Source: Flavobacterium azooxidireducens (GTDB lineage Bacteria; Bacteroidota; Bacteroidia; Flavobacteriales; Flavobacteriaceae). From it: 64,000 nt of DNA. Positions 41,905 to 45,397 of this stretch are shown here, piece after piece; within the stretch, counting starts at the first letter, position 1, and each line of letters opens with the position of its first letter. The DNA is taken from positions 992,001 to 1,056,000 of the forward strand of contig NZ_CP096205.1 in assembly GCF_023195775.1 (NCBI RefSeq), given 5' to 3'. The position numbers and the translations under genes were made by a program. The notes below the pieces were generated by a model that saw only the letters and a list, made by a program, of their open reading frames with translations, was not told where the DNA came from and did no database searches.

Positions 41905-42056
41905 ACTTTTCAAATTCAAAAAAATTACTTGAGATGATATTTTTATTTTTAAATATCATCCCAAGTAATTTAAGAGGTATTGTACATTTTCATTTGTGAG
42001 GATTATTTTTTAAGAAAGACAAAGCAATTTAAAGCTTTAAAAACTTAATCTACAAA
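41905..42056. other. Intergenic stretch before the queG relic
   Basis: The first half is the long terminator hairpin of the uraH operon. The remainder is AT-rich with no reading frame or RNA feature that I can support. Confidence 0.5.
41920..41972. terminator. Very long hairpin terminator after uraH
   Basis: About 20 bases (AAATTACTTG, A, GATGATATTT) pair with AAATATCATC, C, CAAGTAATTT with one mismatch, around an AT-rich loop. Confidence 0.8.
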
Positions 42057-42273
42057 TTAATCTCTCAAAAACGCAACATTCCTCTTCAACCCTTCCAACT
42101 TAGTCCTTTTCACCGCTGAATTTTTAAATACTTTTTTAAAAACATCTTCTGTAATTTCTTCCCAATCTTTTTTGGTAAAAGAAAGTAATTCGGGATTTAC
42201 TTGAAAAAGCGGTTCGTTATGTGGTTTTGAGAATCGGTTCCAAGGGCAAACATCTTGGCATACGTCACAACCA
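42057..42273 (-). pseudogene. Truncated duplicate of the 3' end of queG
   Basis: Read on the minus strand this stretch encodes the last 71 residues of an epoxyqueuosine reductase, including [34 protein letters not shown] and [11 protein letters not shown], with an intact frame and stop. A hand alignment to the intact gene at 44480-44693 gives about 18 differences in some 210 bases. Similarity ends abruptly after position 42273, where the IS110-type element begins. The rest of the gene does not continue on the far side of the element. It has no start codon of its own and is treated as a relic. Confidence 0.85.
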
Positions 42274-42371
42274 TGCTCTGCATTCTATGATAAAAAAGAC
42301 ATTTGCATTGTATTTTGTAAACTTCGGATAGCCTTTAGATTTGTTCATTGAAAATTTCGTAATTTTAGATT

Positions 42372-42548
42372 AACAACCAAACTGACAAAGTGAACCAGTT
42401 CGGTGGCAAGAATTTAAGGTCTATCCCCAGATTAGGACTTTGTCAGTTTATATTGAATAAGCATCAAATAGTTATTCAGGCATTTAGGCCTATTATTAAG
42501 GTTGTGATTGTATTCAATGTTTGGTTGCTAACCTTTTAAAACTTTTCT
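42372..42548 (+). ncRNA. Candidate bridge (guide) RNA of the IS110-family element
   Basis: The non-coding leader can fold strongly. AAACTGACAAAGT (42379-42391) pairs perfectly with ACTTTGTCAGTTT (42437-42449) around a 45-base loop. ATTGAATA (42452-42459) pairs with TATTCAAT (42511-42518) around a 51-base loop. CAACCAAAC (42374-42382) can pair with GTTTGGTTG (42519-42527) as an alternative outer stem. Two large looped domains upstream of the recombinase match the plan of IS110 bridge RNAs. TAATTTTA just upstream is a near-match to a -7 box. The ends given are estimates. Confidence 0.6.
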
Positions 42549-42549
42549 T

Positions 42550-43551
42550 ATGAACAAATTTAAACATTTTTTAGGTATTGATGTATCAAAAGAATATTTT
42601 GATGCTGTTGTGATTTTGAATGGTAATAACAAGAAAACATTTCACAATCAATTCACTAATGATTTCAAAGGGATTAGGTCACTATGCAAGTGGCTTAAAG
42701 ATCAAGACGCAACGTTTGATAACACACTTGTATGTTTAGAGCATACAGGGATGTATAGTAAGTTAATTATTAAGTATTTGACGGGTTATAACTTCTCGCT
42801 TTGGGTTGAAATGTCTCTTAAAATTATACGAAGTATAGGAGTTCAACGTGGAAAAAATGATAAAGTTGATGCTGAAAGAATTGCCTATTATGCAATGAAA
42901 AATGCTGATGAAGCAACTATTTATAAAGCACCTAGTATGTCTGTAGAGAAGATTAGAAAACTACTTTCTCTTAGAGATAAATTAACCACTACTAAAGCTT
43001 GTTTGATTCGTAATGTTAAAGAACTTAAAACTTTCGATTTAGAACTATCAAAATTGTTAGACAAATTTCAAAAAAATACTATCAAAGGAATTGAAGAAGA
43101 TTTAAAAAAAATTGAAAAGCAATTAGATGAACTAATAATAGAAGATGAAAATATCAATAAAATTTTCAATCAAGCTACATCAGTTCCAGGAATAGGTAAA
43201 ATAACTGCTTTGTTTTTAATATGTTTTACTAATGAATTTACGCTATATTCAAATCCAAGGCAATTGGCTTGTTATGCAGGCGTAGTTCCATTTGAATACA
43301 CTTCGGGTAAATCAGTCAGGGCAAAACCTAAAGTCCATTATATGGCAAATAAAAAATTAAAAAAGCAATTACATCTATGTGCTCTCTGTGCTGCGACTTA
43401 CGATTCTGAGATAAAAGAATACTATCAAAGAAAAGTTGCTGAAGGGAAAAATAAAATGCTTGTATTAAACAATGTTAGAAACAAATTAATACATCGAGTT
43501 TGTGCTTGTATCAGAGAAGATAAAATGTACGAGAAAAGACAAATAGCTTAA
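42550..43551 (+). CDS. IS110-family transposase (DEDD recombinase)
   Basis: The 333-residue protein begins KHFLGIDVSKEYFDAVVIL, the first Asp motif of the DEDD RuvC-like domain. It continues with LVCLEHTGMYSKLIIKYL (Glu motif) and GVQRGKNDKVDAERIAYYAM (paired Asp motif), has a coiled-coil middle (about 165-205), and a C-terminal Transposase_20 domain: TSVPGIGKITALFLICFTNE, QLACYAGVVPFEYTSGKSVR. The catalytic Ser of the C-terminal domain probably lies in the TSGKS region. It appears full length and intact, so the element could be active. Confidence 0.92.
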   Translation: MNKFKHFLGIDVSKEYFDAVVILNGNNKKTFHNQFTNDFKGIRSLCKWLKDQDATFDNTLVCLEHTGMYSKLIIKYLTGYNFSLWVEMSLKIIRSIGVQRGKNDKVDAERIAYYAMKNADEATIYKAPSMSVEKIRKLLSLRDKLTTTKACLIRNVKELKTFDLELSKLLDKFQKNTIKGIEEDLKKIEKQLDELIIEDENINKIFNQATSVPGIGKITALFLICFTNEFTLYSNPRQLACYAGVVPFEYTSGKSVRAKPKVHYMANKKLKKQLHLCALCAATYDSEIKEYYQRKVAEGKNKMLVLNNVRNKLIHRVCACIREDKMYEKRQIA

Positions 43552-43827
43552 ACTTTAAAAACATATTTTCTTTTGAAAGGGAAAAGATAAAAACTCTCTT
43601 CCCCTTCGCAAGACTTGTGTTTTTCCTAAATCAAATTTATTGAATTATTCTCAAAATATCAATGAAAAAATTAACATTTTTTATTTGCTTAAACCATAGT
43701 TATCAGGGGAAAAAGGAAATTTTAATGGGAATTCTTTTGGGGTTAAATTTTGGAGGCAACAAGAGTCAAATACCTCGTAATGCTGAAAGACCTATAATAT
43801 CTTAAAAAAAATGATCTTTGATAAATT
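43552..43827. other. Non-coding region after the transposase
   Basis: About 276 AT-rich bases containing the undefined right end of the insertion sequence. I see no reading frame, RNA gene or continuation of the queG relic in it. Confidence 0.5.
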
Positions 43828-44434: not shown

Positions 44435-44479
44435 TTAATTTAATCATATCTATTTTTTTAAAATTTAAAATAATAAATT

Positions 44480-45397
44480 TTACTTCAAAAACTCCACATT
44501 CCTCTTCAACCCTTCCAACTTAGTTCGTTTAACCGCTGAATTTTTAAATACTTTTTTAAAAACATCTTCGGTGATTTCTTCCCAATCCTTTTTGGTAAAA
44601 GAAAGTAATTCGGGATTCGCTTGAAAAAGCGGTTCGTTATGTGATTTTGAAAAACGATTCCACGGACAAACATCTTGGCAGACATCACAACCAAAAACCC
44701 AATTATCGAATTTGTCTTTCATTTCTGTGGGAATATTTTCTTTTAACTCGATGGTAAAATAGGAAATGCATTTGCTGCCATCCACCACATACGGAGCAAC
44801 GATGGCTTCGGTTGGGCAAGCATCAATACAGGCTGTGCACGAGCCACAGTGGTCGGTAGTTGGGTTGTCGTATTCTAATTCTAAATCAACAATTAATTCG
44901 GCAATAAAATAGAAAGAACCCACTTTTTGGGTAATGAGGTTGGTGTTTTTTCCCATCCAACCCAGACCGCTTTTGGCTGCCCAAGCTTTGTCTAAAACCG
45001 GAGCCGAATCAACAAAGGCTCGTCCGGAAACTTCGCCTATTTCGGTTTGAATAAAATGTAAAAGTTCTTTGAGTTTTTCTTTGATTACAAAATGATAGTC
45101 TTGTCCATAAGCATATTTTGAAATTTTGTAACTCTCTTCGTTTTGAAATTCGGAAGGATAATAATTCAGCAATAATGAAATGACACTTTTGGCTCCATCC
45201 ACTAATAACGTTGGATCCAATCTTTTGTCAAAATGGTTTTCCATATAACTCATTTGACCGTTCATATTTTTGTTGAGCCAGCTTTCTAATCTTGGTGCTT
45301 CTTCTTCGAGGAAACCAGCTTTGGAGATTCCGCAGGAGAGGAAGCCGAGGCGTTTGGCTTCGGATTTTATGATGGATGATAGGTGATCTTTGTTCAT
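44480..45397 (-). CDS. queG: Epoxyqueuosine reductase
   Basis: The 305-residue enzyme reduces epoxyqueuosine to queuosine in tRNA, using cobalamin and two [4Fe-4S] clusters. Visible are [40 protein letters not shown], the cobalamin/active-site region [20 protein letters not shown] and [11 protein letters not shown], and both cluster motifs, [16 protein letters not shown] and [11 protein letters not shown]. It is full length for proteins lacking the C-terminal HEAT extension. Its last 71 codons are duplicated at 42057-42273. Purine-rich repeat sequence lies directly upstream of its start. Confidence 0.93.

Follow-up and report, generated by a model that had tools for sequence, protein, structure and literature searches.

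Bridge RNAs are predicted in 85.7% of IS110-group elements in one study (PMC11208160). Another (PMC11187229) demonstrates seekRNAs for ISEc21 and reports that the ISEc21 leader, supplied in trans, restores transposition of a leader-deleted element. The ISEc21 seekRNA involves an essential non-coding region upstream of tnp and a stretch complementary to each target strand, a likeness to the element analyzed here, but ISEc21 has another host and target, and its promoter is generated by joining of the ends. The IS1111 group (ISKpn4, ISPst6, and ISPa11) is likewise described as combining a DEDD transposase with a guide RNA. The attC sites given there as targets of ISKpn4 and ISPst6 recall the sites of sister elements in two genomes of our set (G260 and G112), which appear to be of the same kind. 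In contrast, the RNA downstream of tnp and the subterminal inverted repeats of 7-17 bp given there for the IS1111 group are both absent from our element.

Here, we analyzed a stretch of 64,000 nt from Flavobacterium azooxidireducens (the window) and conclude with high confidence that nucleotides 42331-43704 are an IS110-group element with a bridge RNA guiding its recombinase. Sequence comparison makes it very probable that an IS110-type bridge RNA is encoded at about 42371-42533; a preliminary description of this DNA had inferred one at about 42372-42548, a reading that covariation and guide matches support. The element resembles IS621 in its recombinase family, in the position of the RNA upstream of the recombinase, in the order of the loops (target loop before donor loop), in loops whose 5' side corresponds to the top strand on the left of the core and whose 3' side complements the right, and in a discontiguous nine-to-seven right donor guide. 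It differs from IS621 in the core, which is CT in IS621, whereas the base shared here is C (N-C); in an outer stem closing both loops, in place of the separate 5' stem-loop of IS621; and in a promoter-like motif wholly within the left end, where IS621 reconstitutes its promoter at the RE-LE junction.

Extent, ends and copies of the element

The element, its cores, and its donor and target sequences are placed as follows.

42331-43704, + strand: IS110-group insertion sequence, core to core, about 1.37 kb (from the identical second copy, the tips of relatives, and the filled and empty sites of sisters)
42331-42332, + strand: left core GC, of which only C is common to both joints (from tips and sister sites; N-C is a putative reading of the core)
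42333-42338, + strand: right donor (RD) CTTTAG, the left tip of the element, conserved with few variants and able to pair with the right donor guide
43695-43704, + strand: left donor CATAGTTA with right core TC (from the copy comparison and the tips of relatives)
42319-42332, + strand: left target remnant AAACTTCGGATAGC (flank sequence)
43704-43710, + strand: right target remnant CAGGGGA, core C included (flank sequence)

The genome holds two identical copies, the one in the window (L001) and a second one (L002), which agree over window positions 42330-43705 and then diverge. Because identity is confined to this interval, the element spans about 42331-43704, and 42274-42330 is flank. The preliminary description had the element begin at 42274, a coordinate about 57 bp too far out on the left; the extent of identity with the second copy, which begins at 42330, rules out 42274 as the left end. 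In the neighboring DNA, 42036-42273 is a second, partial copy of queG that covers the 3' part and shares 87% identity with 44456-44693 in the intact gene; matches to this queG-like stretch in other genomes mostly stop at window positions 42272-42274, and the queG homology ends at 42273, 57 bp left of the element.

A search of the whole genome (3.82 Mb, one contig) gave 16 IS110-type matches, namely the 2 identical copies, 1 match at 41%, 7 at 36-37%, and 6 at 27%. Relatives at E <= 1e-75 are found in 12 of 398 same-genus genomes, 3 of 397 at the family level, and 5 of 395 at the order level (own genome included in each), and no relative of the element was found in the viral contigs searched. 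Close relatives have the left tip CCTTTAG, with few variants, and the right tip CATAGTnATC. The non-coding ends of the element measure 217 nt on the left, upstream of the recombinase, versus 151 nt on the right. In agreement with the layout of the IS110 group, the longer non-coding end is thus the one upstream of the recombinase, and the left end carries a conserved non-coding RNA with two loops.

The relatives in G260 and G112 sit in a repeated site of which empty copies are available. The empty site reads ...CTGGCACTACAGCGGGTTTGGG, the filled sites read ...CACTAC/CTTTAG... and ...AGTAATC/AGCGGG at the two joints (slash), and C is the sole base common to both. The empty sites asked for in the preliminary description could therefore be had for these sisters, where they fix the ends of the element, and none was readable for the insertion in the window: the left flank of that insertion, searched in 60 genomes (own included), gave no foreign match reaching the joint and hence no empty site. 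In the window, C is preceded by G at the left joint and by T at the right one, so that again only C is shared; the 36-37% IS110 family of the same genome has TC at both joints. We read the core as N-C, in which the base before C would differ between the donor (T) and the target (A, G, or T in most copies). The predicted circle junction is CATAGTTATCCTTTAGATTTG, and on the N-C model the empty site of the window insertion is predicted to be ...ACTTCGGATAGC joined directly to AGGGGAAAA.

Recombinase

42550-43551, + strand: IS110 recombinase, 333 aa, with D11, E64, D104, D107, and S252 present (from Pfam and NCBIfam, IS621 structure 8wt6, and residue positions)

The recombinase had been called intact, and the open reading frame 42550-43551 bears this out. 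Pfam finds DEDD_Tnp_IS110 (PF01548) and Transposase_20 (PF02371) in the 333-aa product, which scores 158.4 bits against NCBIfam NF033542, 'IS110 family RNA-guided transposase' (cut-off 140), and matches IS621 (8wt6, E 3.1e-26) and ISCro4 (9t56, E 6.4e-24) in the PDB. The score against the TIGR-Tas endonuclease family NF052498 is 22.6 bits, below its cut-off of 100. The acidic residues were placed by what we take to be the catalytic D/E/D/D set of IS621, and the serine is S252, compared with S241 in IS621. A Bacteroidota host, as first suggested, fits the six loci at 71-78% identity, five of which are from Flavobacterium and one from a Flavobacteriia bacterium.

Structure and covariation of the leader RNA

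42371-42533, + strand: bridge RNA, modelled extent (covariance model R1, 176.8 bits, E 2.5e-33, with the window sequence itself in the model)
42379-42391 and 42437-42449, + strand: target-loop stem, AAACTGACAAAGT and ACTTTGTCAGTTT, 13 bp with a 45-nt loop (sequence, covariation)
42452-42459 and 42511-42518, + strand: donor-loop stem, ATTGAATA and TATTCAAT, 8 bp with a 51-nt loop (sequence, covariation)
42374-42382 and 42519-42527, + strand: alternative outer stem, CAACCAAAC and GTTTGGTTG, 9 bp (sequence)
42374-42380 and 42521-42527, + strand: outer stem as modelled, 7 pairs (covariation)
42409-42422, + strand: target-loop inner hairpin AGA/TCT, which covaries among relatives
42478-42491, + strand: donor-loop inner hairpin AGGC/GCCT (covariation)

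The 13-bp, 8-bp, and alternative 9-bp outer stems of the preliminary description are all present letter for letter, and the first 2 nt on the 5' side of the target-loop stem compete with the outer stem. The folding energy of 42372-42548 is by itself moderately better than chance (z = -2.56; 2 of 200 shuffles as good), and that of the longer leader 42284-42549 is less distinct (z = -1.22; 26 of 200 shuffles as good), so that folding energy is weak evidence overall; it is covariation that sets the leader structure clear of chance. A scan of the 64-kb window against 4227 Rfam families gave no match at the gathering score.

The preliminary description had staked its reading on covariation of the stems among related leaders, and strong covariation was found. 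The set comprised 19 leaders with 53-100% recombinase identity, several of them near-identical, aligned by MAFFT; the structure scored (target stem, donor stem, two inner hairpins, and outer stem) was drawn from the window sequence. In this alignment, which is not fitted to the structure, 92.8% of 642 cells are paired and both sides change at 17 of 34 pairs, with 48 doubly changed cells versus 12.0 in shuffles, a number reached in 0 of 500. Slid control structures show 25-45% paired cells, a comparison in which a structure drawn from one of the aligned sequences is favored by itself. Of the five measures, one, the count of further pair types, does not exceed shuffles (25 versus 27.6). RNAalifold, applied to a first, rougher alignment of 24 leaders (L094 row wrongly cut, poor alignment of L003), gave 15 pairs, with double change at 13; from that alignment it returned the target stem and donor inner hairpin only, with the outer and donor stems not predicted.

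The covariance model built from the 19 leaders was run on 38 sources (208 kb); loci outside these sources include L006-L009, L012, L014-L016, and L054-L059. In the window, 42371-42533 is the sole + strand match at E up to 1, accompanied by a weak antisense overlap (22.4 bits) and otherwise nothing. Thirteen of the 16 sources not in the model (27-51% identity) match directly upstream of the recombinase at E <= 3e-4; among these 16, L004, L005, and L010 are members of one family, and L003, L045, L046, L094, and L095 had already been in the 24-leader alignment. L004, L005, and L010 are the three copies tested of the 36-37% family of the same genome, and the model matches the leader in all three. 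L047 shows a weaker match (E 0.0016), about 100 nt further out, and no match was found in L011 and L013, the two copies tested of the 27% family. The top opposite-strand match in any source has 28 bits (E 0.0043). In the model-fitted alignment of 34 matches, which leans to the structure, double changes occur at 33 of 34 pairs and 94.3% of cells are paired; for the outer stem, double changes are seen at 7 of 7 pairs there and at 1 of 7 in the MAFFT alignment of 19 leaders.

The stems could also be viewed as inverted repeats, terminal or subterminal, through which the recombinase binds the DNA ends directly, given that IS1111-group elements are described with subterminal inverted repeats. We consider this hardly credible and reject it: when the outer 50 bp of one end are compared with those of the other, no inverted match exceeds 8 bp, the 8-bp match lies at unequal depth and falls in the range of shuffles (mean 6.4, maximum 9, n=300), and the stems sit within the leader at 42374-42527.

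Promoter-like motif in the left end

42340-42366, + strand: promoter-like motif TTTG-N16-TAATTTT, inside the left end (from the motif search in related leaders)

Of 24 related leaders, several of which are near-identical, 19 carry ahead of the RNA the motif TTTG-N16-TAnnTT, which we take to resemble the Bacteroidota promoter consensus; the motif occurs in 2.6% of mononucleotide shuffles. Spacings of N17 and N18 occur in one leader each, and the motif is absent in L043, L045, L046, L094, and L095. Should the motif be functional, transcription of the RNA from the integrated element would be possible.

Target loop and insertion sites

42399-42407, + strand: left target guide TTCGGTGGC, matching the left flank of L001 at 8 of 9 positions with wobble (5 strict) and that of L002 at 7 of 9 (4 strict)
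42424-42430, + strand: right target guide TCCCCAG, matching the right flank of L001 at 6 of 7 positions and that of L002 at 4 of 7 (3 strict)
42431-42434, + strand: possible handshake guide ATTA, proposed by analogy with IS621

We compared guides and flanks in 33 element copies of 15 target-loop types (14 types for the right guide; L093, without a right end, was counted for the left guide only), with the best register from -2 to +2 allowed alike for cognate and non-cognate pairs. L041 and L044 had been removed in advance because they seemed to repeat L019 and L021, and L042/L098 and L052/L096, each of which looks like one insertion present in two collections, were kept and averaged within one loop type. 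The left guides share 5.78 of 9 strict identities with their own flanks versus 3.81 with those of other types, and the right guides 5.17 of 7 versus 2.85; in both cases the difference was reached in 0 of 20,000 permutations of types, a procedure that treats the loop types as independent although they are interrelated. At a fixed register, the left guide shows 3.98 versus 2.69 strict identities (4 of 20,000) and 5.48 versus 4.11 with wobble (0 of 20,000). The matching of loop bases to donor and target, put forward at the outset as a check, comes out in favor, though several individual fits are poor.

Clear fits (left of 9, right of 7) are seen for L020 (9 and 7), L024 (8 and 7), and the G260/G112 type (8.1 and 5.9). 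The left fits of L021, L028, L035, L043, and L092 are 3-4 of 9 strict, no better than the non-cognate mean of 3.81, and the right fits of L028 and L092 are 3 and 2 of 7. The left end of L043 was taken at the wrong place because of a partial second RNA upstream of it. The strand rule of the IS110 group, with the bottom strand on the 5' side and the top strand on the 3' side of the loops, holds over the element set; the types that depart from it are L028 and L092 on both sides and L021, L035, and L043 on the left. By eye, the left flank of L093, CGCGCCAGC, fits its own guide CGCGCC-GC with one extra target base, and the left flank of L028 likewise fits the guide of L022 from the same genome with one extra target base; these two fits suggest that a bulge in the target pairing may be tolerated.

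With wobble allowed, the total score of L001 is 14 of 16, matched by 2 of 21,721 C-centred window positions on both strands, and the total of 11 for L002 is reached by 602 of 21,721. These scores make the window copy a good two-sided match and the second copy a fair one on the left and a poor one on the right. The poor right flank of the second copy, the presence of just two copies in the genome, and the broken queG fragment adjoining the window copy would all suit a true bridge RNA gene in an element that is inactive or was relocated by other recombination, its flanks not being true targets. We regard this as unlikely in view of two identical copies at different places, an intact recombinase with its catalytic residues in place, and the good two-sided fit of guide and flanks in the window copy.

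Donor loop and element ends

42467-42475, + strand: left donor guide AATAGTTAT, of which seven bases equal the right end of the element before C
42493-42501, + strand: right donor guide TTATTAAGG, whose nine bases would pair with seven of the donor by analogy with IS621

In 27 of 28 elements, the seven bases before the terminal C of the right end recur in the left donor guide of the same element, and this seven-mer takes five forms (TAGTTAT, TAGTAAT, TAGAAAT, TGGAAAT, and TAGAATG). The exception is L043, whose donor guide disagrees with its own right end. Three of the 34 matches had been left out beforehand (the second RNAs in L043 and L094 and the second copy in L017), and 3 of the other 31 rows have no right end. 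Because the right-end search pattern fixes four of the seven compared bases, the agreement is partly circular for elements resting on the pattern alone; the free evidence consists of the other three bases and of the families with ends set by comparing copies.

The right donor guide TTATTAAGG can pair with the left tip CCTTTAG if two of its nine RNA bases loop out opposite the seven of the DNA. Co-variation by eye is seen in L095, where a guide ending in CAGGG goes with the left tip CCCTTAG, and in L051, where the guide ending AAAGGG goes with CCCTTTAG; in L094, with the same guide ending, no such tip was found in the stretch searched. The first two bases of the handshake candidate ATTA complement the donor A-T preceding C.

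The leader lies directly upstream of the recombinase start, with 16 nt between 42533 and 42550, and would share its transcript, and the stems taken alone would suit a regulatory leader. A rival reading is that it only controls translation of the recombinase, as a structured 5' untranslated region, and contains no guide. We think this very improbable, as the element-variable letters of the loops track the flanks and ends of the same element, which a regulator would not predict. Since the loops match the element's own ends and its place of insertion, the RNA very probably guides insertion.

Related elements and their sites

The sisters in G260 and G112 lie among attC-like repeats, of which at least 31 occur 208-2512 bp apart in G260 (C1, about 3925220-3961091, loci L115 and L116), and repeats of this kind are also found in G112. 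Of 12 intervals examined between the repeats, 10 carry an open reading frame of at least 112 aa. A 370-aa open frame beside the repeats of G260 gives a partial integron-integrase match in two pieces (112 and 97 bits, cut-off 265), where the same model also gives below-cut-off matches in all 14 control genomes. The right flanks are of the attC-like repeat type in 12 of the 12 sister copies examined, and the target loops of these elements therefore look programmed to integron-like sites.

Second bridge-RNA-like matches were observed upstream of the element's own RNA at L094:2761-2917 (- strand) and L043:1191-1297. By eye, the one in L094 is complete with different guides and the one in L043 comprises the target loop only; tandem guide RNAs and nested remnants are candidate readings of both. 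In the own genome, the 36-37% family (L004-L010, 7 copies) sits in a palindrome like GATTTCTCCTTCGTC/GAAATGACA, and its target, sought in the window with up to 3 mismatches, gave 0 matches. The 27% family (L011-L016, 6 copies) has TCCCGATAG at the left edge and the inverted CTATCGGGA at the right.

Discussion

The sequence anatomy of the element, the covariation of its leader RNA, and the matches of the guides to flanks and ends are established here. As bridge RNAs are predicted across the IS110 group and ISEc21 has its seekRNAs, this RNA belongs to a known kind and would work by the mechanism published earlier for the IS110 family. The core base, the internal promoter motif, and the outer stem are a possible variant with respect to IS621, which we do not claim as new. 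A literature search that reached a minority of subscription papers and preprints returned no paper joining IS110, bridge RNA, and Flavobacterium or Bacteroidetes.

By analogy with IS621 and ISEc21, the RNA would be made, bound, and used to guide recombination. The left end would be transcribed from about 42371, probably from the motif at 42340-42366, giving an RNA of about 165-180 nt. This RNA would fold into a target-binding loop and then a donor-binding loop, joined by the outer stem, and would bind the recombinase. At the genomic target, loop 1 (42399-42407 and 42424-42430) would pair with the bottom strand on the left and the top strand on the right; in the circular element, loop 2 (42467-42475 and 42493-42501) would do the same where the right and left ends are joined. 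Strand exchange by the DEDD/serine recombinase would follow, beside the shared core ending in C.

We tentatively propose, as a possibility that we do not yet favor, a Bacteroidota branch with a core fixed at C, a Bacteroidota-type promoter wholly in the left end, and target loops that have been rewritten repeatedly, in the sisters toward integron attC-like sites. If this is true, the guide RNA (and the recombinase) could be made from the integrated element without a prior circle, and the branch would naturally offer recombinases that differ in their core requirement.

The present analysis extends to Flavobacterium a computationally well-supported bridge RNA, with its ends, guides, donor, and one good target. 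If active, the element would widen the programmable set by a recombinase whose core preference is different and by a possible promoter in the integrated state, and its sister elements suggest natural re-targeting to integron-like arrays.
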